Positions 7,248 through 24,866 of a stretch of DNA of 64,000 bases are shown piece after piece. A program made the translations under genes and the position numbers. The stretch is from Acidimicrobium ferrooxidans (GTDB taxonomy: Bacteria > Actinomycetota > Geothermincolia > Fen-727 > Anoxymicrobiaceae), in the NCBI GenBank assembly GCA_020723485.1, contig DYIU01000002.1, forward strand, positions 963,190 through 1,027,189, read 5' to 3'. Within the stretch, counting starts at the first letter, position 1, and the number at the start of each line of letters is the position of its first letter. Below the pieces are notes generated by a model. The model made no database searches, was not told the DNA's origin, and saw only the letters and a list, made by a program, of their open reading frames with translations.

Positions 7248-8045
7248 ATGAACATTGTGGTCTGCGTAAAGCAGGTGCCGGACACTTCCGACCCCGACAC
7301 CGAGGTCCACATCGACGGGACCGGTAAGGGCGTTGATCAGGGCAAGTTCAGCTTCGTGATCAATGACGCGGACAACTTCGCGGTGGAAGAGGCCATCCTG
7401 CTCAAGGAGAAGCACGGCGGAGAGGTGACCGTTGTAAACATCGGCCCAGAGGCGGCAAACCAGGTGATCAGGATGGCGCTGGCCAAGGGCGGCGACTCCG
7501 CGGTCCGCCTCGATGACGAGAAGTTCGCCTACTCAGACCCCGTCGCGACCGCGCGCCTGCTGGCGTCGGCGCTCAAGGACGTCGAGTACGACCTGGTGAT
7601 GACCGGCTGCCTGGCGACCGACGACGGGTACGGCGCGGTCGGCATAGCGCTGGCGCAGTTGCTGGGAGTGCCCCACGCCGCTTACGCCAAGACGGTCGAA
7701 GTGGTCGACGACAAGAAGCTCAAGGTCGGCCGCGAACTCGAGGGCGGCCTGCTCGAGATGAACGAGATCGAGCTGCCCTGCGTCCTCGCGATACAGACCG
7801 GCGGCAACGAGCCCCGGTACGCCTCGTTCAAGGGCATCCGCGAGGCCTCCAAGAAAGAGATAAAGGTCATGGACCTCGCCGCGACCGGCCTCTCCGAGGA
7901 CCAGGTCGGCGAGGCCGGCTCCGTAGCAGTGATGACGCAGTACTCGGTGCCCGAGGTCGGCGAGCTCGCCGAGATCCTCGAGGGCGACCCCGCCGAGACC
8001 GCCGGGAAGCTTGCCGGCATACTGAAGGAAAAGGGGCTGGTATAA
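7248..8045 (+). CDS. etfB: Electron transfer flavoprotein, beta subunit
   Basis: 265 residues, starting MNIVVCVKQVPDT, a nearly invariant EtfB opening, with the adenine-nucleotide-binding region (VMTGCLATDDGYGAVGIALA) and the C-terminal LPCVLAIQTGGNEPRY signature. With EtfA it forms the FAD-binding heterodimer that takes electrons from acyl-CoA dehydrogenases. GAAGTGAGGTGAACCGGGT precedes the ATG. It sits between the HdrCB fusion and etfA with the etfA start directly after its stop. Whether this ETF bifurcates cannot be read from the sequence by eye. Confidence 0.95.
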   Translation: MNIVVCVKQVPDTSDPDTEVHIDGTGKGVDQGKFSFVINDADNFAVEEAILLKEKHGGEVTVVNIGPEAANQVIRMALAKGGDSAVRLDDEKFAYSDPVATARLLASALKDVEYDLVMTGCLATDDGYGAVGIALAQLLGVPHAAYAKTVEVVDDKKLKVGRELEGGLLEMNEIELPCVLAIQTGGNEPRYASFKGIREASKKEIKVMDLAATGLSEDQVGEAGSVAVMTQYSVPEVGELAEILEGDPAETAGKLAGILKEKGLV

Positions 8046-9008
8046 ATGGGTGACATTCTTGTACTTGCAGAGCACAGGCAGGGCGAGCTGCGCGAGGTCA
8101 CCCTGGAGCTGCTGACCCTTGCCGGCCAGCTGGGCGGCAACGTAACGGCGCTGCTGCTAGGCAGCGGAGTCGACGATTTCGCGAGCAAGATAGCAGGCTT
8201 CGCGGACAAGGTCATGGTGGTCGACGACCCGATGTTCGCCGACTTCAACCAGATGGCCTACCAGGCCGCGCTCGCCGAGATAATCAAGAACGACAAGCCG
8301 GGCCTCGTGCTCATCGGCAACACCGGCCAGGGCGTCGACCTGGTCGGCTCGCTCGCCGTAGAGCTCGACCTCCCCTTCACCACCGACGCTATCGCGGTGG
8401 TCATGGAGGGCGACAAGCCGGTGGTGACCCGCCAGTATTACGGCGGCAAGATAAACGGGACCATCAACTTCAAGGACGCCGAGACCTACGTCATCGGCGT
8501 TCGCGAGGCCGCGGTCCCCGCGGGCGAGGGCGGAAAGTCCGGGGAGGTCGCCAAGGTCGACAACCCGGTGACCGCAGAGATAACCGCCCGGAAGTTCCTG
8601 GAGTACGTAGAGGCCGCGATCGGCGACGTGGACATCACGCAGTCGGCGCTGCTGGTCTCCGTGGGCCGGGGCATCAGGGAAGACAAGAACCTGCCGATGA
8701 TCGAGGAGCTCGCGGCCCTGATGGGCGCGGACATCTCCGGAAGCCGCGCGGTCATAGACGCCGGGTGGCTCCCCGCCGACCGCCAGGTGGGCATCTCGGG
8801 CAAGACCGTGAAGCCCAAGCTCTACCTTGCACTCGGCATCAGCGGCGCGTTCCAGCACGTGACCGGGATAAAGGGCTCCGACTTAGTGGTCGCCATCAAC
8901 AAGGACCCGGACGCCCCGATATTCCAGTACGCGGATTTCGGAATCGTGGATGACCTGCTGAAGGTGGTGCCCGCCCTTATCGACAAGATCAAGGAGACTA
9001 AGGGGTAA
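8046..9008 (+). CDS. etfA: Electron transfer flavoprotein, alpha subunit
   Basis: 320 residues. The C-terminal FAD domain shows the EtfA pattern: [13 protein letters not shown], the SRAVIDAGW segment, and [20 protein letters not shown] followed by [18 protein letters not shown]. The N-terminal domain ends near residue 190. The ATG immediately follows the etfB TAA. The two subunits would carry electrons between an acyl-CoA dehydrogenase (none in the window) and the Hdr-type proteins encoded on either side. Confidence 0.95.
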
Positions 9009-9032
9009 GGGCTCCAAGGAGGACCGGAGTAA

Positions 9033-11066
9033 ATGGTTGATAGTCTTAGACCCAAGATAGGCGTTTACATCTGCCACTGCGGCATCAACATCGGCTCGGT
9101 GGTCGACGTGCCCGCTGTGGTCGAGTACGCCTCGAAGCTGCCGGGGGTCGCGGTATCACGCGAGTACACATACATGTGCTCCGACCCGGGCCAGAACCTG
9201 GTCAAGGAGGACATCGAGAAGGAGGGTCTCAACCGCGTGATCGTGGCCTCCTGCTCGCCCCGCATGCACGAGCCGACGTTCCGCAAGACCCTGAAGGACG
9301 CGGGCCTGAACCCCTACTACCTCGAGATGGCCAACATCCGCGAGCAGTGCTCGTGGGTGCACGAGGACCACGCCGAGGCGACCGAGAAGGCCAAGAAGCT
9401 GGTCGAGGCCGCCGTGGCGAAGGCCCTGCTGCTCGAGGCCCTCGAGGAGAAGGAGGTCGACGTAATCCCGTCGTGCCTGGTCATAGGCGCCGGGATAGCC
9501 GGCATACAGGCCGCGCTCGACATCGCGGACGCCGGGTTCAAGGTGTACGTCGTCGAGAAGACCCCCTCGGTGGGCGGCCACATGGCCCAGCTCGACAAGA
9601 CGTTCCCGACGCTCGACTGCTCGGCATGCATCCTCACGCCGAAGATGGTCGACGTGGCCAACCACCCGAACATCGAGCTCATGACCTACTCACAGCTCGA
9701 GGAGATATCCGGCTACGTGGGCAACTTCAAGGCCAAGATCCGCAAGAAGGCGCGCTACGTCGATTTCGACAGGTGCACCGGCTGCGGGGTCTGCGCCGAG
9801 AACTGCCGCTTGGCAGGCCGGATACCCAACGAGTTCGACGAGCTCATCGGGAACCGTGGGGCTATCTACCTGCCGTTCCCGCAGGCGGTCCCTGCCAAGT
9901 ACACTATCGACCCGGAGCGCTGCCTGCAGCTCTCCAAGGGCAAGTGCGGTAAGGAAGGCCCCGCGTGCGTGGCCGCGTGCGGTCCGGGCTGCATCGACTT
10001 CGAGCAGCAGGACGAGATTGTCGAGATAGAGTGCGGGACCGTCATCGTGGCCACCGGCTACGACGTGTTCCCGATGGAGAAGAAGCCCGAGTACGGCTGG
10101 GCCGAGAACGACAACGTCCTGACCGGCCTCGAGTTCGAGCGCCTCGTGTCGGCATCGGGCCCCACCGGGGGCAAGCCCATCCTCGGCCGCGACAAGAAGG
10201 GTGAGGGCGGCTACGAGCCCAAGAAGGTGGCTTTCATCCACTGCGTCGGCTCCCGCGACAAGTCAGTGGGTAACGAGTACTGCTCGCGCGTCTGCTGCAT
10301 GTACCTGGCGAAGCAGGCCCACCTCATCCGCGACAAGCTGCCCGACGCGGAGATAACCGTCTTCTACATGGACGTGCGCGCGTTCGGCAAAGGCTTCGAG
10401 GAGTTCTACGACAGGGTGCGCCGCGAGGGCGTGCGCTACGTGCGCGGCAACCCGAGCGAAATATTCAAGAAGAGCGCGGACCCTGAGGACCACACCCTCA
10501 TCGTCAAGGTAGAGGATACGCTGACCGGAACTCCTCTGGAGTACGAGTCGGACCTGGTGGTCCTCGGCGTCGGCCTGGAGCCGCGCAGGGACATCAGGGA
10601 GATAATCGACCTCTTCAAGCTCTCGCAGTCCACGGACGGCTTCTTCCTTGAGGCCCACCCCAAGCTGCGCCCGGTGGACACCGCCTCCGACGGCGTGTTC
10701 CTGGCGGGCTGCTGCCAGGGCCCCAAGGACATCCCCGACACCGTCGCCCAGGCCAAGGGCGCCGCTTCGAGCGCGCTCATCCTGATGGCGTACGGAAAGG
10801 TCAAGGTCGAGGCCCAGGTCTCCGTGGTCAACCCGGACGAGTGCCGCGGCTGCGGTTTCTGCGTCGAGGTCTGCCCGTTCACCGCGATCGAGCTGGTCGA
10901 CGAGAACCGCATGGGCAACATCGTCCAGGTGGCGAAGGTGAACGAGGCCCTCTGCAAGGGCTGCGGCAGCTGCGCGGCGGCCTGCCTGTCCGGCGCCATC
11001 CAGCCGAAATCCTTCAAGGATGAACAGATACTGCCACAAATCGCTGTGCTAGGAGTGAAGCCGTAA
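9033..11066 (+). CDS. hdrA: HdrA-like flavin-based bifurcating subunit
   Basis: 677 residues with the HdrA architecture: N-terminal domain ([15 protein letters not shown]) with the HdrA cluster Cys residues, the FAD-binding loop [17 protein letters not shown], the conserved [20 protein letters not shown] and TPKM region, an inserted ferredoxin-like pair ([12 protein letters not shown] and further Cys near 300-330), and a C-terminal 2x[4Fe-4S] domain ([12 protein letters not shown] and [12 protein letters not shown]). All expected cysteines are Cys; no in-frame TGA suggests selenocysteine. HdrA splits or merges electron pairs between NADH, ferredoxin and a high-potential acceptor. It directly precedes mvhD (TAATG overlap). 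Confidence 0.94.
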
Positions 11067-11497
11067 TGAGTGAAGAATTCGAGCCCAACATAGTCGCGTT
11101 CCTGTGCAACTGGTGCTCGTACGCGGGGGCGGACCTGGCGGGGACCTCGAGGACGCATTACCTGCCCAACGTCAAGATAATCAGGGTGATGTGCTCCGGG
11201 CGCGTCAACCCGCTGTTCCTGGTGAACGCCCTTCAGCAGGGAGCGGACGGCGTCCTGATATCCGGTTGCCATCCGGGCGACTGCCACTACCTCGAGGGCA
11301 ACTTTTTCGCCAGGCGCCGCTTCATGCTCATGCGCAAGCTGCTGGAACACGTCGGTGTGGACCCGGCCCGCGTGAACATGAGCTGGGTCTCGGCCTCCGA
11401 GGGCGCCAAGTTCAAGGACGTCGTCGACGAGGTCGTGACCAAGGTCAAGGAAGTGGGTCCGATGGACCAATTCAGACGGAGGCAGATAAATTGGTAG
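11066..11497 (+). CDS. mvhD: MvhD/FlxD-type [2Fe-2S] subunit
   Basis: 143 residues of the FlpD/MvhD family with five conserved cysteines: CNWC at residues 14-17, MCSGR, and GCHPGDCHY. The protein carries electrons from the input module (hydrogenase, formate dehydrogenase or Flx) to HdrA. Here no hydrogenase genes are present and the following genes are Flx-like, which points to NAD(H) as the partner. The start overlaps the hdrA stop (TAATG), and the stop TAG lies inside the TTGGTAG start region of the next gene, so the order is tightly coupled. Confidence 0.93.
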   Translation: MSEEFEPNIVAFLCNWCSYAGADLAGTSRTHYLPNVKIIRVMCSGRVNPLFLVNALQQGADGVLISGCHPGDCHYLEGNFFARRRFMLMRKLLEHVGVDPARVNMSWVSASEGAKFKDVVDEVVTKVKEVGPMDQFRRRQINW

Positions 11498-12474
11498 ACG
11501 AGAAGAAACTCCAGGACAAGGCCAGGGAGACCCTCAGCCGCGACGACGTGCGGAGGCTCATAGGCTGGAAGCGGAGCACCTACGGCTACGAGGCCGCGCC
11601 GGCGGTCCTGACGGACGCTTCCGAGGCGGACCAGCTCATATTCGACCCGACCTGCGTTCAGAACCCGGCCTCCTTCATCTCGCTCGAGGAGAAGAAGCCG
11701 GTCCCGCGCGGGCAGGAGCCCGATACCCGCAAGATAGCGGTGATGGTCAAGGGCTGCGACTCGCGGGCCATCGTCCAGCAGCTGGTCGAAAAGGCCTACA
11801 ACCGGGATGACGTGGTGGTGCTCGGGATACCGTGCATCGGTGTCATCGACAGGCGCAAGGCCGAGAAGCTATTCGGCGAGACCGGCAAGCAGGTCAAGGC
11901 CAAGGTCGACAAGGAGAAGGTGGCGGTGGATATCGGCGGCGACGTAAAGACGGTCGACCGCAAGGACATCCTCATGGACAAGTGCCTGCGCTGCCGGTAC
12001 CCGAACCCGCTGGTGAGCGACTTCCTCCTGGGCGATGAGGTCGAGAAGTGGGCCGACGACGACTTCGCCGACGTCGACGAGTTCGAGAAGATGACCCCCG
12101 AGGAGAAGTGGAAGCACTGGGACGAGCAGCTCTCGAAGTGCATCCGCTGTTACTCGTGCAAGAGCGTCTGCCCGATGTGCTACTGCGTCGAGTGCGTCGT
12201 CACTCAGCAGAAGCCGCAGTGGACCCGCCGGTCGACGGACATAAGTGAGAACGCCGCGTACCACCTCCAGAGGGCGTGGCACCTGGCCGGGCGCTGCATC
12301 GAGTGCATGGAGTGCCAGCGGGTCTGCCCGGTGGACATACCGATAATGGAGCTCAACCGGAAGATGACCAGAGAGGTCAAGGAGATGTTCGACTACGAGC
12401 CGGGAGTGGACGCGGAGGCCGAGCCGCTGCTCGCCAGCTATAACCCGCAGGACCCCGAAGACTACATCATGTAG
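11491..12474 (+). CDS. Flx-type Fe-S subunit (FlxC-like) with FrhB-like N-terminal part
   Basis: About 327 residues from TTG 11491, which overlaps the mvhD stop and has GGAGG 8 bases upstream; the same frame stays open far upstream but only antisense-style noise precedes this point. The N-terminal half (KIAVMVKGCDSRAIVQQL, VVLGIPCIGVIDRR) resembles the F420-hydrogenase beta / FrhB family. Cysteine groups follow: CLRCRYPNP, CIRCYSCKSVCPMCYC with VECV, and CIECMECQRVCPVDIP, giving two or more [4Fe-4S] clusters. It would bridge FlxA and MvhD. The exact FlxB/FlxC name is uncertain. Confidence 0.82.
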   Translation: MVDEKKLQDKARETLSRDDVRRLIGWKRSTYGYEAAPAVLTDASEADQLIFDPTCVQNPASFISLEEKKPVPRGQEPDTRKIAVMVKGCDSRAIVQQLVEKAYNRDDVVVLGIPCIGVIDRRKAEKLFGETGKQVKAKVDKEKVAVDIGGDVKTVDRKDILMDKCLRCRYPNPLVSDFLLGDEVEKWADDDFADVDEFEKMTPEEKWKHWDEQLSKCIRCYSCKSVCPMCYCVECVVTQQKPQWTRRSTDISENAAYHLQRAWHLAGRCIECMECQRVCPVDIPIMELNRKMTREVKEMFDYEPGVDAEAEPLLASYNPQDPEDYIM

Positions 12475-12483
12475 GTGGAGGTT

Positions 12484-13518
12484 ATGGGAGATTATAAGTT
12501 CGCAAAAGACAAGCTCGCCGAAGCGCTTTCCGGTCTCACGGATTACGAGGTGTTCGCGCCGGCCGCGGTGGGCGACGTGCTGAGGTTCAAGGTGGTCGAG
12601 GACCCCGCGAGCGTCAGTCTCGACTACGACAACACCACCGTGCCTCCCAAGGAGCTGATGTTCCCCCAGACCGAGACGCTCTTCAAGTACCGGCTCGGGC
12701 AGACGGACATCGAGCCGACGGTGCCTGACGCTTCCGCGAAGAGGGCCGTGGTCGGGATAAGGCCGTGCGACGCGCTCGCCTACACCATCGTGGACAACCT
12801 CTACGGGTGGGACTTCCCGGACCCCTACTACCAGCAGCGCCGTGAGGCCACCACCCTTGTGGGCCTCGCATGCTCGGACCCGTGCGCAAACTGCTTCTGC
12901 CCGTCGGTGGGCGGCGCCCCCGCCTCGGAGAAGGGCCTGGACGCCCTCATCTTCGACCTGGGTGACGCCTACTACGTCAAGACCCTCACCGACAAGGGCG
13001 AAGAGTTCGCGAAGGCGGCGGGCCTCGAGGCGGCCGGGGACGCGGAGGCCAAGGCGGCGGCAAAGCAGGGCGAGGAGGCGCTCGGCAAGGTGCAGCGCTC
13101 CATCGATACCGCCGGGATCCCGGAGCACCTGCCGGAGCTCTACGACGACAAGTTCTGGGAGCAGTTCTCGGACAGGTGCCTCTCCTGCGGTATCTGCACG
13201 TTCCTGTGCCCCACCTGCCACTGCTTCGACATCCAGGACGAGAGCGAGGGGTTCGACTCCAGGCGCGCGCGCATGTGGGATACGTGCATGTTCGCCGAGT
13301 ACACCCGGCACACCTCCGGGCACAACCCGCGCCCCACGCGCAAGGAGCGCACCCGGAACCGCATCAGCCACAAGTACTCTTACTTCCCCGAAAAGTTCGA
13401 CGTGATAGCCTGCGTCGGCTGCGGGCGATGCATCAACAACTGCCCGGTCAACATCGACATCGTGGACATCCTCGAGAAGTCCAAGCAGGCTGGAGCCAAG
13501 GAGGCAAAGACGGCATGA
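12484..13518 (+). CDS. Flx-type Fe-S subunit (FlxB-like; AsrA/hydrogenase-beta family)
   Basis: About 344 residues. An N-terminal domain with DPCANCFCPSVGG and a C-terminal ferredoxin pair (CLSCGICTFLCPTCHC and CVGCGRCINNCPVNIDI) match the family of sulfite reductase subunit A, sulfhydrogenase beta and FlxB proteins, which move electrons from the NAD(P)H:flavin subunit. A conserved RKERTRNRISHKYSYFPEKF segment lies between the two cluster motifs. ATG 12484 has GGTGGAGG just before it with very short spacing; GTG 12475 directly after the previous stop is the alternative. The stop overlaps the flxA start. Confidence 0.85.
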   Translation: MGDYKFAKDKLAEALSGLTDYEVFAPAAVGDVLRFKVVEDPASVSLDYDNTTVPPKELMFPQTETLFKYRLGQTDIEPTVPDASAKRAVVGIRPCDALAYTIVDNLYGWDFPDPYYQQRREATTLVGLACSDPCANCFCPSVGGAPASEKGLDALIFDLGDAYYVKTLTDKGEEFAKAAGLEAAGDAEAKAAAKQGEEALGKVQRSIDTAGIPEHLPELYDDKFWEQFSDRCLSCGICTFLCPTCHCFDIQDESEGFDSRRARMWDTCMFAEYTRHTSGHNPRPTRKERTRNRISHKYSYFPEKFDVIACVGCGRCINNCPVNIDIVDILEKSKQAGAKEAKTA

Positions 13519-14363
13519 TGGACGAAAGCAACCCCTACCTCCCTTACATAGTCAAGATCGAGGACGCCTGGTACGAGACCCCGGTGGGCGACAGGGCGGT
13601 CAAGACCTTCAAGGTGAGCTTCGTCGACGAGAAGGTCTGGGACACCTGGAGCCACGAGCCCGGGAACTGCGCCATGGTCGGGCGCCTTGGCATCGGCGAG
13701 TCGATGTTCTGCATATCCTCCTCTCCCACCGAGAAAGGGTACCTGCGCTTCTCGATAATGAAAGCGGGGAAGGTTACGAGCGCGCTTCACGAGCTCGAGG
13801 CCGGGGACACCATGACCGTCCGCGGGCCCCTGGGCAACTCTTTTCCGATGGCCGAGTGGGAAGGCAAGAACATCGTGAGCATCGGGGGCGGCATCGGCCA
13901 GGCCCCGCTGCGGCCCGTCATCAACTACGTAAGGGCCAACAAGGAGAAGTACGGCGACCTCTCGGTACTGTACGGCGCGAGGACCTCGGACCTCCATTGC
14001 TTCAAGACGGAGTTCGACGAGTTCACCAAAGAAGGCACCGCCTGCCACCTGGCGATCGACGTCGAGGAAGAGGACTGGCCGCACTTCGTGGGCTTCGTCC
14101 CCGACCTGCTGATGAAGGTCGCTCCCGAACCCGCCAACACCATCGCCGTGACGTGCGGCCCGCCGATACTGATAAAGTTCGTGACGCAGGGTCTCGAGAA
14201 GCTGGGATTCACCCCCGACCAGATATACACCACGCTCGAGGAGCGCATGAAGTGCGGCATCGGAAAGTGCGGACGCTGCAACGTCGGGCACCTGTACGTG
14301 TGCAAGGACGGGCCGGTGTTCAGCTACGCGACCCTCAAGGAGATACCCGAGGCGTTCGCCTGA
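13515..14363 (+). CDS. flxA: FlxA-type FAD/NAD(P)-binding oxidoreductase subunit
   Basis: 282 residues of the ferredoxin-NADP reductase / AsrB / dihydroorotate-dehydrogenase-K family. The FAD-binding beta-barrel contains FSIMKAGKVTSALHELEAGD and RGPLGNSFP; the NAD-binding part has GGGIGQAPLRPVI and CGPP near the C-terminus; a [2Fe-2S] motif follows (CGIGKCGRCNVG then YVCKDGPVFSY). It oxidises or reduces NAD(H) and passes electrons to the Fe-S subunits encoded just upstream. Start ATG 13515 overlaps the preceding stop (ATGATG). It is the last gene before a strong terminator. Confidence 0.92.
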   Translation: MMDESNPYLPYIVKIEDAWYETPVGDRAVKTFKVSFVDEKVWDTWSHEPGNCAMVGRLGIGESMFCISSSPTEKGYLRFSIMKAGKVTSALHELEAGDTMTVRGPLGNSFPMAEWEGKNIVSIGGGIGQAPLRPVINYVRANKEKYGDLSVLYGARTSDLHCFKTEFDEFTKEGTACHLAIDVEEEDWPHFVGFVPDLLMKVAPEPANTIAVTCGPPILIKFVTQGLEKLGFTPDQIYTTLEERMKCGIGKCGRCNVGHLYVCKDGPVFSYATLKEIPEAFA

Positions 14364-14386: not shown

Positions 14387-14420
14387 GAGGGCGGGCTTGA
14401 AAAGCCCGTCCTCTTTCTTT
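14387..14420 (+). terminator. Rho-independent terminator of the Hdr/ETF/Flx operon
   Basis: GAGGGCGGGCTT (14387-14398) pairs with AAGCCCGTCCTC (14402-14413) with one G-U pair and a 3-base loop, followed by TTTCTTT. It lies 23 bases after the flxA stop. Confidence 0.88.
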
Positions 14421-14457: not shown

Positions 14458-14492
14458 AATGCAACAAAATGACCTGACCCCGATGTTGCATT
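14458..14492 (-). repeat. Solitary GGGGTCAGGTC-type unit (minus orientation)
   Basis: AATGCAACA and TGTTGCATT (9-bp inverted repeat) enclose AAATGACCTGACCCCGA. The same unit, slightly changed, lies at 20285. Its ATG (14459) is in frame with the SCP2 gene and would add a spurious 23-residue N-terminal extension. Confidence 0.7.
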
Positions 14493-14527
14493 TTCACTCT
14501 ATCGCGAGCGGAGGGGTGGTGCCTGCC

Positions 14528-14962
14528 ATGAAGTGGAGAGTCGACAGCGGCCAGCCCATCGACGAGGAGCTCAGGGACTCCATCCTCGACAGGATAGAAG
14601 AGGGGACCTTCTGCATCGACGACCTCGAGGACTACTGCACGGTCTTCACCCAGATCTGCAACGACACCGAGGATATCGCCGACGAGGTGGAGGGGCTCGA
14701 CAAGAAGTTCCAGATAAAGATCGACGGCAAGCCGGCGGCGTGGCTCGCCTTCAAGGACATGAAGTTCGAGATGGGCTCCGGAGCCATAGAGTCACCGGAC
14801 CTCACCTTCGACATGGGCGCCGACCTCGCGGCGGACATCTTCTCCGGGCAGGTCGACGCGACCGCGGCATACATGAGCGGCGACCTCAAGGTGGACGGCA
14901 TCATCAATGACGCGATACTCTACCGTACCCTGCTCGAGCTGGTGCAGGACGAGCTCGAGTAA
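14528..14962 (+). CDS. SCP2 sterol-binding-domain protein
   Basis: About 144 residues. The C-terminal hundred residues match the SCP2 lipid-binding fold: FQIKIDGKPAAWLAFKDMKFEMG, then SPDLTFDMGADLAADIFSG and AYMSGDLKVDGIINDA. SCP2 proteins bind acyl-CoAs, sterols or other lipids. The start is placed at ATG 14528, after GGAGGGGTGG; an upstream in-frame ATG at 14459 lies in a repeat unit and should be ignored. The TAA stop (14960-14962) is part of a repeat-element end. It follows the terminator of the Hdr operon, so it is a separate transcription unit. A role with acyl-CoA substrates feeding the ETF is possible but unsupported by more than proximity. Confidence 0.85.
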   Translation: MKWRVDSGQPIDEELRDSILDRIEEGTFCIDDLEDYCTVFTQICNDTEDIADEVEGLDKKFQIKIDGKPAAWLAFKDMKFEMGSGAIESPDLTFDMGADLAADIFSGQVDATAAYMSGDLKVDGIINDAILYRTLLELVQDELE

Positions 14963-14996
14963 ACGCAAAATCGGGGTCAGGTCACTTTGTTGCATT
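14960..14996 (+). repeat. Solitary GGGGTCAGGTC-type arm including the TAA stop
   Basis: TAAACGCAAAATCGGGGTCA followed by GGTCACTTTGTTGCATT is identical over 37 bases to the reverse complement of 52769-52805, where it also supplies the TAA stop of another gene. Confidence 0.8.
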
Positions 14997-15036
14997 CTGT
15001 AACGCGCGTCCGCCCCGCGCGGTCAGGGAGAGCACT

Positions 15037-17304
15037 ATGAAACAGGTGAAGTTCGGCATCATCGGCGCGGGAGGAGCCTGGAGCTTCCACTCGAACGCGT
15101 GCGCCGACTCGGAGCTGGTCAGGTTCACCGCGGTGTACGACGTCAATCGCAAGCAGGCCGTCAAGAAGGCCCGGCGCTACAAGGTGAACGAGATGGCGCC
15201 ATACGACGACCTGGGCGAGTTCCTGGCCTCGGACATCGACGCGGTGCTGGTCATGGTCCCGCACATCTACCACGAGAAGGTGGTCTCGCGCTGCGCGGAG
15301 GCCGGCAAGCACGTGCTGTGCGAGAAGCCGATGGCCACGACGCTCGAGGGCTGCCGGGCTATGATAAACGCCTGCCGGAAGGCCGGCGTAAAACTGATGA
15401 TAGCCGAGAACCACCGCTTCCTGCCCGCGCACACCTGGATACACGACACGGTCCAGCGGGGCCTCATCGGGGACGTGCTTCTGGTGCGGGCCTACGAGGG
15501 CGTGAACGAGATACCGGGCCTGAGCCTCCCCGACTTCTGGAAGGGAGACCCCCTGAGGGCCGGGGGCGGGTCGCTGATGGACATGGGAGCGCACAAGTTC
15601 GCGGCGCTCGAATGGATACTGGAGGACCGGGTGGAGTCGGTGAGCGCGATGCTCGCCAAGCAGGCCATCAACCTGCCGGAGAAGGCCGAGGACAACGCCC
15701 TGACCATGCTCCGGTTCTCGGGGGGACCTATCGGAGAAGTGGTGGTCAGCTTCACGCAGATGACCACCCCGTTCAACAGCATGGAGATCTACGGGACGCA
15801 GGGCACGATACTGGAGAACCACATGTGGGAGAGGCCCGTCCGCATACTCTCCCACCACCCTGAGATGGGCGAGCACAAGCAGCAGTGGTACGAGCCCGAG
15901 GTCGAGCACGCCCCGTTCCCCGTCTATTACTCCATCTCGGTCAAGCACGAGGACGAGCATTTCGCCCGCTGCATCATCGAGGACACCGAGCCGGAGTTCA
16001 GCCCCGAGGACGCCATGAGCGCCGTAGAAGCGGTGCTGATGGGGTACCTGTCCGCGCACACGGGCAGGGCGGCGACCCGCGACGAGCTCGAGGAGCTCGC
16101 TGCCGGGCAGGGAACGCGGAGCCTCCTCGAGGACCTGAACGAGCACGTCCCAGTAGACAAGCGACTGCCGGAGGTGAAGCGCGTGGAGCCCATCGGTTTC
16201 GACAAGGACAGGGCCGCCGAGGCAATGGAGAGGCACGACCTGGACGTGTTCATAGCCACGTCCCCGGTCAACGTCTACTATCTCACGGGCCTGCCCACCC
16301 TGCACGCCGAGCCGAATCCCATCCTGTTCGCGCTCAGCAACCAGTACCCCAACGTGGCGATGCTCAACCGCGAGGGAGACGTCACCCTGTTCAACTGGGA
16401 CCTCTTCAGGAGCGTGGACGATATCTGCTGGGTGGCGGACCACCGCGGCGCCTCGGGCCAGAAGGGCATAAGGAAGCAGGTCTGGTCGAAGATTAAGAAG
16501 TGGGGGGTGGTCGGCAAGCGCGTAGGCGTCGAATCGACCGCGCCCAAGTACCTGCTCGACCACCTGGCCAAGAAGAACCCGGACGCCGAGGTCGTCACCG
16601 CCGACGAGGCCGTCCTGGACATGCGCCTCATCAAGAGCGAAGAGGAGATCGCCTGCATCGAGGAGGCCACCCGCATCGCCGAAAAGGCGATAACCTCCTG
16701 CATCAAGGCGGCGCGCCCCGGCATGACGGACAACGACTTCCTCCAGCTCGCCAGGAAGACGATGGTCAATGAAGGCGCGGTGGGCTGGGACCACCTGACC
16801 ATGAGCATCGGGGGGTCCGACCCGGAGGCGCCGGGAGTCGGCACGGTAGCGAAGAAAGGCGACATCATCCGCTTCGATTTCGGGGCAGTCTTCAGGGGCT
16901 ACGTATCGGACGTAAACCGGCACGTGGTGCTGGGCCCCGTGCCCCGCGAGGCGAAGAAGCTCATAAGCCAGCTCATCGGTCTCCAGGAGTACTTCGAGAA
17001 GCGCGTCAAGCCGGGCGTCAACATCAAGGCCTTGAACGACGAGGCCATCGATTACTACCGGTCGGTCAAGCCCGAGGGCATGACGTTCACCGTCGGCCAC
17101 TCCCTCGGCCTCGAGTGCGAGGAGGCGCACCTCTTCGGGACGATGGGGGTCGCCGACCGCCCGTTCGAGGAGGGCATGGTGTTCGAGATAGAGGCCTGGG
17201 AGGGCTTTGGCGACACGCTCATCGGGGTGGAGGACTGCTACGTGGTCACTGCGGACGGCTGCCGCAAGTTGACCACCCTGGACAAGCGGATGACCTCGAA
17301 ATAG
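15037..17304 (+). CDS. Fusion of Gfo/Idh/MocA oxidoreductase with M24 (creatinase/prolidase-like) hydrolase
   Basis: 755 residues in one uninterrupted frame. Residues 1 to about 355 are a Gfo/Idh/MocA NAD(P)-dependent dehydrogenase: GIIGAGGAW nucleotide loop, Lys97 in CEKPM, then the C-terminal beta domain (EIYGTQGTI). From about 390, DLDVFIATSPVNVYYLTGLP begins a creatinase-type N-terminal domain, and the M24 pita-bread domain keeps all five metal ligands: Asp614, Asp625, His688, Glu719 and Glu732. M24 enzymes are Xaa-Pro aminopeptidases, creatinases or related C-N hydrolases. Both halves look active. The fusion suggests sequential action on one substrate, perhaps an N-linked or sugar-like compound. 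A BKACE-like gene and an SDR gene follow in the same operon. I do not know this fusion. Confidence 0.9.
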   Translation: MKQVKFGIIGAGGAWSFHSNACADSELVRFTAVYDVNRKQAVKKARRYKVNEMAPYDDLGEFLASDIDAVLVMVPHIYHEKVVSRCAEAGKHVLCEKPMATTLEGCRAMINACRKAGVKLMIAENHRFLPAHTWIHDTVQRGLIGDVLLVRAYEGVNEIPGLSLPDFWKGDPLRAGGGSLMDMGAHKFAALEWILEDRVESVSAMLAKQAINLPEKAEDNALTMLRFSGGPIGEVVVSFTQMTTPFNSMEIYGTQGTILENHMWERPVRILSHHPEMGEHKQQWYEPEVEHAPFPVYYSISVKHEDEHFARCIIEDTEPEFSPEDAMSAVEAVLMGYLSAHTGRAATRDELEELAAGQGTRSLLEDLNEHVPVDKRLPEVKRVEPIGFDKDRAAEAMERHDLDVFIATSPVNVYYLTGLPTLHAEPNPILFALSNQYPNVAMLNREGDVTLFNWDLFRSVDDICWVADHRGASGQKGIRKQVWSKIKKWGVVGKRVGVESTAPKYLLDHLAKKNPDAEVVTADEAVLDMRLIKSEEEIACIEEATRIAEKAITSCIKAARPGMTDNDFLQLARKTMVNEGAVGWDHLTMSIGGSDPEAPGVGTVAKKGDIIRFDFGAVFRGYVSDVNRHVVLGPVPREAKKLISQLIGLQEYFEKRVKPGVNIKALNDEAIDYYRSVKPEGMTFTVGHSLGLECEEAHLFGTMGVADRPFEEGMVFEIEAWEGFGDTLIGVEDCYVVTADGCRKLTTLDKRMTSK

Positions 17305-17319
17305 GCGGGAGCTCCGGCG

Positions 17320-18114
17320 ATGGAAAAGCTCATAATCACGGCGACGACCGCGAACTCGTGGCTCCATCCCGACGTCCGGAACTGGCCCGAGACCCCCGAC
17401 GAGCTCGTGGACGAGGCGGTCGCCTGCGCCGAGGCCGGGGCGGCGATACTCCACCTGCACCTGCCGCGCAGCAGCGAGGCCACAGCCGTGGTGAGCAGGA
17501 TAAGGGCGCGCACCGACGCGATAGTGCAGGCGGGGATGTCGAGCTACCCCGTCGAGGACCGCCTGACCGACTTCGAGTGCCGCCCGGACATGGTCTCCTG
17601 CATCCTCAACCACCACGACGAGCACTTCGCGGACGCCCACGTGGACCGGCTCCATACCCTGCAGGAATTCGAGGAGTACTGCCGCCTGTTCGAGGAATAC
17701 TCGGTCAAGCCCGAGTGGGAGGTGTGGCACACCGGCTCCTACTGGAACCTCAACTACATGGTGGAGCAGGGGTGGCTCGCCGGGCCGCACGTGCTGACGC
17801 TGTTCTTCGGCTGGCCCGGGGGCACCTGGAGCCCGGCGACCCCGGACAGCTACTACTTCAGGCTCGGCCACATGCCCGCCGACTGTTTCTACACGGTGAG
17901 CGTCATGGGCCCCCAGCAGAGGGACATCGCCATCCTGGCGCTCGCCGACGGGGGCAACGTGAGAGTGGGCACCGAGGATTATCCCTTCCTGGATGAAGGG
18001 GTGCCCGCGGAGAGCAGCGCCGAGCTCGTGGAGGCGATGGTCCGAATGTCGAGAGGGATGGGCCGCGAGGTGGCAGGAGCCGCGGAGGCCAGGAAGATAC
18101 TGGGGATGGGATGA
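17320..18114 (+). CDS. BKACE-family (beta-keto acid cleavage) enzyme
   Basis: 264 residues of the DUF849 / 3-keto-5-aminohexanoate cleavage family. The TIM-barrel opening KLIITATTANS, the zinc-binding LHLHLP pair of histidines (AAILHLHLP), and the C-terminal VRVGTEDYPF (family pattern RVGxED) are visible. These enzymes condense a beta-keto acid with acetyl-CoA and release acetoacetate plus a new CoA thioester; substrates range from carnitine and lysine degradation to beta-ketoadipate. ATG 17320 lies 15 bases after the fusion gene and its stop overlaps the SDR start. Somewhat shorter than the usual 270-310 residues. Confidence 0.88.
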   Translation: MEKLIITATTANSWLHPDVRNWPETPDELVDEAVACAEAGAAILHLHLPRSSEATAVVSRIRARTDAIVQAGMSSYPVEDRLTDFECRPDMVSCILNHHDEHFADAHVDRLHTLQEFEEYCRLFEEYSVKPEWEVWHTGSYWNLNYMVEQGWLAGPHVLTLFFGWPGGTWSPATPDSYYFRLGHMPADCFYTVSVMGPQQRDIAILALADGGNVRVGTEDYPFLDEGVPAESSAELVEAMVRMSRGMGREVAGAAEARKILGMG

Positions 18115-18890
18115 TGAGGCTTGAAGACAAGGTGGCGGTCGTAACCGGTGCGGCATCGGGCATCGGCAGGGCGACCGCGGTCCTGTTCGCGCGGGAAGGG
18201 GCGCTCGTGCACGCATCCGATGTGGACGGGCCGGGGCTCGACGAGACCCGCGAGCTCGCCGGCGCGGGCGGCGGGGTGGTCGAGACGTCCATCGTCGACG
18301 TGACGGACTTCGCCGGCGTGAAGGGGCACATCGACGGTGTGGTCTCGAAGCGTGGCAGGATCGACGTGCTCGTCGTGAACGCGGGCGTGGTGCGGGTCGG
18401 ACGGGTCGAGGATTTCTCCGAGGAGGACTACGACCTGCTCATCGACGTGAACCTGAAAGGGACTTTCTTCACCTGCAAGGCCGCCGTCCCCCATTTCAAG
18501 CGGCGGCGGGCCGGGACGATAATAACGCTCGCCTCGGTGGCGGCCCACATTGGGCAGAACAACCACGCCAACTACTGTTCGACCAAGGCGGGCGTGCTCG
18601 GCTTTACCAGGGCACTGGCCCTCGACCTCGCGCCGTTCGACGTCAGGGTCAACAGCGTCTCGCCGGGAGCGACGGACACCCCGATGCTGCGCAGCGACGT
18701 GGCGAAAGAGGCCGAGCAGCGGGGGCTCCCCTTCGAGCAGGTCAAGAGGGAGTTCGAGGAACAGGGCGTCCTCACGAGGTGGGCCGCCCCGGAGGAGATA
18801 GCGGCAGGCATCCTGTTCCTGGCCACCGACGACGCTTCCTACATGACAGGCGCGGACCTCAGGATGGACGGCGGCTGGACCACCAGGTAG
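18111..18890 (+). CDS. Short-chain dehydrogenase/reductase
   Basis: 259 residues of the classical SDR family: TGAASGIGRAT cofactor loop, LVVNAGV (NAG motif), catalytic Ser in LASVAA, Tyr and Lys in NYCSTKAG, and the PGATDTPM segment after the active site. The C-terminus ends ADLRMDGGWT as in 3-oxoacyl-ACP-reductase-like SDRs. It oxidises or reduces a secondary alcohol with NAD(P)(H). Its start overlaps the BKACE stop (ATGATGA), so it acts with the two upstream enzymes; oxidation of a beta-hydroxy acid to the beta-keto acid cleaved by the BKACE would be the simplest scheme (inference). Confidence 0.93.
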   Translation: MMRLEDKVAVVTGAASGIGRATAVLFAREGALVHASDVDGPGLDETRELAGAGGGVVETSIVDVTDFAGVKGHIDGVVSKRGRIDVLVVNAGVVRVGRVEDFSEEDYDLLIDVNLKGTFFTCKAAVPHFKRRRAGTIITLASVAAHIGQNNHANYCSTKAGVLGFTRALALDLAPFDVRVNSVSPGATDTPMLRSDVAKEAEQRGLPFEQVKREFEEQGVLTRWAAPEEIAAGILFLATDDASYMTGADLRMDGGWTTR

Positions 18891-23671: not shown

Positions 23672-23784
23672 GGTCAGACCACTCTCGTTCCATAAGCAAC
23701 ATAAACCACTTCAACCACAACGACCATTGTGCCGCGTTGCGTGGGTCAACTAGTGTTGCTTATGGAACGAAAGTGGTCTGACCC
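23671..23784. repeat. Palindromic GGGTCAGACC element between convergent genes
   Basis: About 114 bp with 30-bp inverted ends (29/30 matching): GGGTCAGACCACTCTCGTTC onward at 23671-23700 and its complement at 23755-23784. The left loop half is A/C-rich (ATAAACCACTTCAACCACAA). The outermost bases complete the TAG stop codon of the MscS gene on the plus strand and the TAG stop of the Gfo/Idh/MocA gene on the minus strand. Confidence 0.9.
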
Positions 23785-24866
23785 TATTCGAGCTCGTTCA
23801 GGTAGACCTCGCGGTTCTCGTGGGCCGAGCGCATAATGGCAAGGCCGAACTTGAGCACCTCTCTCCCCCGCTCACCGGTCAGGTGCGGCTCGGTGTCGTT
23901 CTGGATGCAGTCTATGAAGTGGTGGGTCGAGTCGTGGAACGAGTCGCCCCAGTCCTGCCGCATGTCCGAGTACTTGGTCAGCTTGCCGTCCTTGTACATC
24001 ATCACCGCCGGCACCTTGAGCATGTCGGCGGTGCACTTCATCACCCAGATGACGCCCTTCTCGCCGGTGAGCTCGAACCTCTCGTCCACGGAGTAGTACT
24101 TGCTCTCGATGAAAAGGTCGCGGCAGAGCATCGAGTCGCACACGCCGAAGAGGTCCTGCTCGCCCTTCCAGCGCCAGGCCACCACGCCGGGCGCGTCAAC
24201 CGCGATACCCGGCAGCACCTCCTTGGAGCCTATCCAGGCGAACACCTTCTCTACCTCGCCCAGCAGGTCGATCGCCACCGACCACTTGTGGTAGCCGTCG
24301 TCCCAGAGACACGGGCCCCCGCCGCACATGTCCTCCACTATCCGCCAGGCCCACGACTCGAGCGGCACCTCCCAGCCGCCGGGCGCCAGGCTCGATGCCA
24401 GCTTGTAGCGGAAAGCCACCGGGTCTCCTATCTCCCCGGCCTCGAACAGCTGTTTCGCGAGCAGGTAAGGCGGGTAGAAGACGAAGTTCTCGAACACCTT
24501 GAACTTGGTGCCGGCCTTCCCGGCCGCCGCTATCATGTCGTCCATCTCCTCCAGGTTTATCGCCGGGGGCTTCTGGAGGCTGACGTGCTTGCCGGCGGCG
24601 AGGGAATCCAGGACCATCTGCTTGTGCAGGTAGTGCGGGGTCAGGACCTCGACGATGTCCACGGCGGGGTCGTTCAGCATGTCGAGGTGGTCGAAGTAGG
24701 TCCTGGCGGGGCCGTACTTCCCGTATTCCTCGACACGGGCCTTGAGCTTCTCCTCGGTGACATCACAGAACGCCGCCACCTCGACGTCGTCGCGGTCGAG
24801 GTACCCGAGGATGTTGAGGTCCAAAATCCTGCCGCAGCCGATGAATCCCACGCCCAGTTTAGACAC
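23784..24866 (-). CDS. Gfo/Idh/MocA-family oxidoreductase
   Basis: 360 residues from GTG 24866 (VSKLGVGFIGCGRI), which follows AAGGAGGTCCAG; longer upstream reading would run antisense to the radical SAM gene. The Rossmann loop GFIGCGRI, the VDIVEVLTPHYLHKQMV segment and the C-terminal beta-sheet (FELTGEKGVIWV) mark the family. The usual E-K-P motif reads LQKPPA, with the catalytic Lys kept but the Glu replaced by Gln. A GGWEVPLESWAWRIVEDMCG segment and a DGYHKW His correspond to the family's substrate loop. Substrate unknown (sugar or cyclitol-like in general). Its stop is supplied by the repeat element at 23671-23784. Confidence 0.9.
   Translation of the reverse strand: MSKLGVGFIGCGRILDLNILGYLDRDDVEVAAFCDVTEEKLKARVEEYGKYGPARTYFDHLDMLNDPAVDIVEVLTPHYLHKQMVLDSLAAGKHVSLQKPPAINLEEMDDMIAAAGKAGTKFKVFENFVFYPPYLLAKQLFEAGEIGDPVAFRYKLASSLAPGGWEVPLESWAWRIVEDMCGGGPCLWDDGYHKWSVAIDLLGEVEKVFAWIGSKEVLPGIAVDAPGVVAWRWKGEQDLFGVCDSMLCRDLFIESKYYSVDERFELTGEKGVIWVMKCTADMLKVPAVMMYKDGKLTKYSDMRQDWGDSFHDSTHHFIDCIQNDTEPHLTGERGREVLKFGLAIMRSAHENREVYLNELE

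Follow-up and report, generated by a model that had tools for sequence, protein, structure and literature searches.

A Gfo/Idh/MocA–M24 fusion conserved with a beta-keto acid cleavage enzyme and a short-chain dehydrogenase: a candidate cassette for an undescribed catabolic pathway

The 64,000-nucleotide stretch of Acidimicrobium ferrooxidans DNA analyzed here (contig DYIU01000002.1 of assembly GCA_020723485.1, positions 963,190 to 1,027,189 of the forward strand; hereafter the window) carries a gene cassette whose central member encodes a single chain joining a Gfo/Idh/MocA dehydrogenase to an M24 domain. It is followed by the genes of a beta-keto acid cleavage enzyme (BKACE) and a short-chain dehydrogenase/reductase (SDR), and preceded by the gene of an SCP2-fold protein. 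The features of the cassette, in window coordinates, are as follows.

14387..14413, + strand: predicted intrinsic terminator with a 12-bp stem and a T-rich tail (consensus match only)
14459..14962, + strand: gene of the SCP2-fold protein, the first of the cassette, 167 aa (Pfam SCP2, 6.4e-10)
14974..15002, + strand: repeat resembling repetitive extragenic palindromic (REP) elements, found throughout the genome and lying here between the SCP2 and fusion genes
15037..17304, + strand: fusion gene, 755 aa, ATG start; NAD-type Gfo/Idh/MocA dehydrogenase plus creatinase-N/M24 (open reading frame and Pfam)
15037..16080, + strand: Gfo/Idh/MocA domain, residues 1-348 (Pfam; K97, D182, H186 and the NAD-type D35 invariant)
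16207..17253, + strand: Creatinase_N and M24 domain, residues 391-739 (Pfam; metal ligands invariant; pita-bread fold in the AlphaFold2 (AF2) model)
17320..18114, + strand: BKACE, 264 aa (PF05853, 1.6e-53)
18111..18890, + strand: SDR dehydrogenase, 259 aa (YxxxK active site present)

The 755-aa open reading frame at 15037-17304 contains zero internal stops, and Pfam placed GFO_IDH_MocA at residues 5-122, C-terminal dehydrogenase domains up to residue 344, Creatinase_N at 391-532 and Peptidase_M24 at 540-739, all above the gathering cut-offs. The SCP2-fold gene ends 74 bases 5' of the fusion gene. The BKACE gene starts 15 bases past the fusion stop and the SDR gene overlaps it by 4 bases, in agreement with the tight spacing described in the original prediction, which was made from the sequence alone. 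Because the predicted terminator lies between the SCP2 gene and the genes upstream, SCP2, fusion, BKACE and SDR likely form one transcription unit. A terminator scan of the window gave 2 matches against 2.0 expected in shuffled sequences; the match at 14387-14413 is long-stemmed and intergenic, and is predicted to separate the cassette from the electron-transfer genes upstream. The earlier description of a set of four activities thus needs one correction: all four are present, but the conserved parts number five, the SCP2-fold gene having been missed.

A scan with six peptide patterns covered 84,980 species genomes and gave 43 related loci, nearly all of the cassette sequences coming from metagenome-assembled genomes (MAGs); the scan reaches close relatives only, and the spread it gives is a lower bound. 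Frame continuity was checked by script across the loci, and the results showed that the Gfo and M24 parts lie in one uninterrupted frame at 25 of the 43, including the window (two of the 25, L014 and L015, are near-identical and come from one site). The hosts of the fused loci belong to Spirochaetota (many of them Treponema), Actinomycetota, Chloroflexota/Dehalococcoidia and Candidatus Zymogenaceae, and include Enterocloster, another Bacillota MAG and the isolate Cohnella caldifontis YIM B05605. Wherever enough downstream sequence was available (23 fused loci), BKACE was found 19-315 bases 3' of the fusion, and the SDR gene came next in 22 of these 23, the remaining locus reaching the end of its contig. 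The SCP2 part lies upstream in all 25 fused loci, as the N-terminal domain of the same chain in 15 and as a separate gene in 10. An assembly junction, which the original prediction had named among the findings that would refute it, and likewise a frameshift artefact, were ruled out, as the 25 loci from many assemblies share the single frame.

Split versions, a search for which the original prediction had proposed, were found as well. In Lokiarchaeota the Gfo gene and an M24-SDR pair are arranged divergently, and several of these cases have BKACE close by; two Treponema loci (L028 and L040) carry neighbouring unfused Gfo and M24 genes. Within Actinomycetota the fusion occurs in 5 of 397 genomes, therefore its distribution there is patchy. 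In phylogenetic trees, the BKACE and the SDR of the window branch as sisters to those of Lokiarchaeota (support 100/100 and 100/99), and its Gfo and M24 parts cluster with the bacterial fusions, with moderate support around the window. The two halves of the cassette, the Gfo-M24 fusion and BKACE-SDR, have thus been recombined yet kept together, and their differing lineages, still adjoining, support one shared pathway. The four activities have been kept together in several bacterial phyla and in Lokiarchaeota, and we found no description of the fusion or of the gene set in the open-licence literature, in searches of which several were aimed at precedents and with most subscription journals lying outside them, so that the proposal of a candidate undescribed catabolic pathway held up. 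Some fusion copies from a related actinobacterial genus contain one in-frame TAG each, in L007 and L017 at the codon of the invariant Gln241 and in L008 at another codon, with the rest of the frame intact. Pyrrolysine decoding was considered, and no PylS above the cut-off was found in the genomes of these copies; readthrough, decay and assembly error are therefore all possible.

The M24 half was analyzed in an alignment of 21 sequences that included the archaeal and split forms. The metal ligands D614, D625, H688, E719 and E732 were invariant in 21/21 sequences. The pita-bread fold was recognized by PF00557 (95.7 bits), and the AF2 model (predicted local distance difference test, pLDDT, 92) matched M24 structures at query-normalized template modelling scores of ~0.70-0.82, among them Xaa-Pro peptidases, ectoine hydrolase, the dimethylsulfoniopropionate (DMSP) lyase DddP and creatinase. 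The closest solved proteins in sequence and fold are the Xaa-Pro dipeptidases/aminopeptidases 1wy2 and 2zsg, which have the same metal ligands; unlike in these, the catalytic histidines are replaced. The histidine of the peptidase HE motif, 7 residues past the metal-binding histidine, is Glu695 in 21/21 sequences, while the five best solved homologues have His there, as does a different M24 protein (L004) encoded in the same genome. The position of the Xaa-Pro peptidase pocket histidine falls in an invariant SDPEAPG motif that holds no His, and W584, H586 and H698 are further new invariants of this half. With E695 in place of the catalytic His, the protein falls outside both the Xaa-Pro peptidases and the methionyl aminopeptidases. 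It scored 31 bits (33 in the genome search) against a cut-off of 600 for DddP (NCBIfam NF043017), and 60 bits against 575 for the ectoine hydrolase DoeA (NF038259).

Since both peptidase histidines are replaced, with E695 in 21/21 sequences, the M24 half is probably not a peptidase, and an ordinary peptidase was rejected as a candidate. The five metal ligands named in the original prediction are all there, but the name hydrolase is unproven: although the metal site is intact, the peptidase histidines are gone, so that elimination or cleavage of a C-C or C-O bond is at least as likely as hydrolysis. To our knowledge, no group of M24 proteins has so far been found to act on carbohydrates. For DddP, it has been reported that an M24 fold with an intact di-metal site is used for beta-elimination, with Asp377, near the metal-binding histidine, proposed as the base (PMC4108388). 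DddP resembles the M24 half in this fold and retained metal site, whereas it acts on DMSP and is not fused to a dehydrogenase.

The dehydrogenase half was assigned to Gfo/Idh/MocA by PF01408 (90.5 bits), PF22725 (77.1) and PF02894 (57.2). K97 of the EKP motif and the D-x3-H pair D182 and H186 were invariant in the 21 aligned homologues, suggesting an active dehydrogenase, as had been predicted. Its best named family is inositol 2-dehydrogenase (the IolG equivalog), at 148 bits against an NCBIfam cut-off of 355, and the glycoside 3-oxidase DgpA is among its best solved homologues. The SCP2 part scored 39.7 bits against a Pfam cut-off of 21.3; the AF2 model of the gene product (pLDDT 85) best matched the SCP2 protein AF1534 (3bn8) in the PDB. 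This domain is a constant accessory of the fusion, perhaps in substrate binding, and might accommodate a lipophilic moiety of the substrate.

The BKACE scored 182 bits with PF05853 (cut-off 24.8). H45, H47, R215, E219 and D220 were invariant in the alignment; we take them to be the Zn ligands and the catalytic Arg/Asp, with roles as in the lysine-fermentation BKACE, Kce. The Kce model itself gave 145 bits against a cut-off of 382, and a conserved HHxExF motif at residues 98-103 marks a different pocket. In Kce, Glu14 binds the 5-amino group of the substrate (PMC10470551). The cassette BKACEs have Ser or Cys at this position, beside an invariant Trp, and these specificity residues argue against the lysine-type function that had been suggested. 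The BKACE of the phloroglucinol pathway shows the same loss of Glu14 and takes an amine-free substrate (PMC10470551).

Many cassette copies extend into genes for an FCD-GntR regulator and an extended SDR of the epimerase type, together with RbsB-RbsA-RbsC-like genes. The recurring transport partner is a ribose/xylose/allose-type sugar ATP-binding cassette (ABC) system; GPH symporters occur in L010, L012 and L018, and LacI or IclR regulators in several copies. At L044, a KdgK-like kinase and a 2-keto-3-deoxy-6-phosphogluconate (KDPG) aldolase precede the Lokiarchaeal genes. An epimerase-type SDR (17 loci in the count; those listed are L010, L012, L014, L016, L017, L019-L023, L025, L027, L028, L046, L050 and L052) and a second classical SDR (10 loci: L024, L026, L029, L030, L034, L035, L037-L039 and L044) were never found in the same locus, which suggests that they substitute for each other. 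No aminotransferase, demethylase or betaine transporter recurs beside the cassette copies. The gene context points to a carbohydrate or cyclitol rather than a quaternary or amino compound, because sugar ABC and GPH transporters, FCD-GntR and LacI regulators and the epimerase-type SDR recur. In L018 (3656-7080), a corrinoid protein, a GPH symporter and an MtaA/UroD-type methyltransferase lie directly 5' of the triple fusion; these neighbours could indicate a methylated substrate in that species.

The window holds other features as well. The block at 7248-14363 resembles electron-transfer flavoprotein, HdrA-like, MvhD-like and iron-sulfur/flavin subunits, which perhaps make up an electron-confurcating complex; judging by the predicted terminator, this block is probably separate from the cassette. 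The REP-like repeat GGGGTCAGGTCACTTTGTTGCATTC at 14974-15002 has a single copy in the window. Its 25-base core has 132 copies in the genome at up to 2 mismatches (0 for the reversed control), many as inverted pairs ~50 bases apart, and its place between the SCP2 and fusion genes is probably incidental. A second, stand-alone Gfo/Idh/MocA dehydrogenase is encoded at 23784-24866 on the - strand, ~26% identical to the dehydrogenase domain of the fusion.

We propose that the cassette encodes a carbohydrate-type catabolic pathway built on a redox-coupled M24 enzyme, a reading to which we give close to an even chance. With the architecture, the gene and residue conservation and the transporter context observed as above, we infer the substrate, the M24 reaction, the order of steps and the role of SCP2. 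The Gfo/Idh/MocA domain would use NAD+ to oxidize a hydroxyl on the ring of a sugar, a glycoside or a cyclitol. The resulting ketone would acidify the adjoining C-H. The di-metal M24 domain on the same chain, in which Glu695 replaces the peptidase histidine, would then serve as base and Lewis acid to cleave the ketone, most likely by beta-elimination and less likely by ring-opening; the fusion would hold the reactive keto intermediate on one chain. The SDR, joined in many species by the second SDR or the epimerase-type SDR, would oxidize the product to a beta-keto acid, which BKACE and acetyl-CoA would split into acetoacetate and an acyl-CoA. As an example, a glycoside could be converted to a 3-keto-glycoside, by elimination to 3-keto-glucal and by hydration to a 2-deoxy-3-keto-hexose, whose oxidation to 2-deoxy-3-keto-hexonate would let BKACE release acetoacetate and tetronyl-CoA. 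Taken at its most specific, one polypeptide of two unrelated folds would carry out chemistry like that of glycoside hydrolase family 4 (GH4), the Gfo domain making a keto-sugar from which an M24 carboxylate base eliminates and BKACE taking the 2-deoxy-3-keto acid to acetoacetate and acyl-CoA, as a new pathway of gut, termite-gut and subsurface bacteria and Asgard archaea; this full version is possible, on balance doubtful.

Each kind of step has a precedent. Dehydrogenation followed by elimination is found in the levoglucosan pathway and in GH4 (PMC7676230). For opening next to the ketone, the precedent is phloroglucinol breakdown, where an enzyme recruited from C-N hydrolases performs a retro-Claisen C-C cleavage (PMC10470551). 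The LgdA-LgdB1-LgdB2-LgdC pathway of Bacillus smithii resembles our proposal in 3-dehydrogenation followed by a separate beta-elimination enzyme, and its cluster resembles the cassette copies in having a Gfo/Idh/MocA member, LacI and a sugar ABC system; however, its eliminating enzymes are annotated as sugar phosphate isomerase/epimerases rather than M24 proteins, its ending is reductive, and it has no BKACE (PMC7676230). The action of an SDR and then BKACE on a deoxy sugar acid has been described for deoxyribose/deoxyribonate in Pseudomonas simiae, where an SDR forms a 3-keto sugar acid that BKACE is proposed to convert to acetoacetate and acyl-CoA; that pathway differs from the cassette in starting with a molybdenum dehydrogenase and a lactonase, and no Gfo/Idh/MocA, M24 or SCP2 is described (PMC6365646).

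Several points weigh against the proposed pathway. An SCP2 domain would suggest that the ligand is lipophilic, unlike a plain sugar. Glu695 stands at +7 from the metal-binding histidine and Asp377 of DddP at +6, the DddP residues being taken from PMC4108388; the two may not be equivalent, so that DddP serves as an analogy. The residue arguments as a whole rest on alignment rather than on a liganded structure. In the window's own genome, no Peripla_BP_4 protein and no orthologue of the cassette epimerase were found (best match 28% identical), and the only strong GPH symporter lies ~200 kb from the cassette.

The phloroglucinol cluster of Clostridium scatologenes (PGR, DPGC, TfD and TAL) bears on an alternative, which we consider unlikely, that the dehydrogenase produces an inosose-like ketone from a cyclitol and that M24, a 'C-C hydrolase' in this case, opens the ring by a retro-Claisen reaction. 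In that cluster, four activities of the same kinds follow one another in the same order (an oxidoreductase, a metal-dependent hydrolase, a hydroxyacid dehydrogenase and BKACE), with a transporter and a regulator, and retro-Claisen C-C cleavage is carried out by a metal enzyme recruited from a C-N hydrolase family (PMC10470551). Unlike in the cassette, its cyclohydrolase belongs to the 'cyclase' family and not M24, TfD is of the 3-hydroxyacyl-CoA dehydrogenase type, and no Gfo/Idh/MocA, SCP2, fusion or sugar ABC system is part of the cluster as described (PMC10470551). IolG as the best named Gfo family and weak IolE-like and IolM-like neighbours at some loci favor a cyclitol, but every inositol-family match scores far under its cut-off and no standard iol gene is conserved alongside the cassette. 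The constant presence of the SCP2 fold, the likeness to DgpA and the GPH symporters of the three loci would also suit a glycoside with a lipophilic aglycone, or another amphiphile, in which SCP2 holds the hydrophobic part, Gfo makes the 3-keto-glycoside and M24 frees the aglycone. This seems quite unlikely, as no glycosidase or aglycone-degrading gene recurs, ribose-type ABC systems usually carry small sugars, and this reading would not on its own account for BKACE.

The original prediction favored another substrate class, a quaternary or amino compound that a creatinase-like M24 enzyme would cut and a carnitine/lysine-type BKACE would finish. In its favor, M24 includes creatinase and ectoine hydrolase, both among the structural matches, and BKACE includes lysine-type enzymes. 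However, the ectoine hydrolase and Kce models scored far below their cut-offs, the amine-binding Glu is missing, and the transporters and regulators are of the sugar type, making this reading very improbable. That the neighbourhood is a chance or housekeeping one and the M24 half an ordinary peptidase domain is hardly credible: every component family is very large (27 SDR matches at E<=1e-20 in this genome), but the gene order is kept across several bacterial phyla, the parts also co-occur in other arrangements in Lokiarchaeota, and both peptidase histidines are replaced throughout the alignment.

If the proposed carbohydrate-type pathway is correct, the cassette would add a route by which gut Enterocloster, Treponema MAGs, environmental bacteria and Lokiarchaeota degrade a compound of the carbohydrate or cyclitol type, and an invariant motif in its M24 half would define a non-peptidase M24 subfamily. 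An annotation problem becomes testable as well, that of M24 proteins likely labelled 'aminopeptidase P family' despite sitting in sugar operons. The Cohnella and Enterocloster copies include substrate-binding proteins that offer a direct way to the compound.

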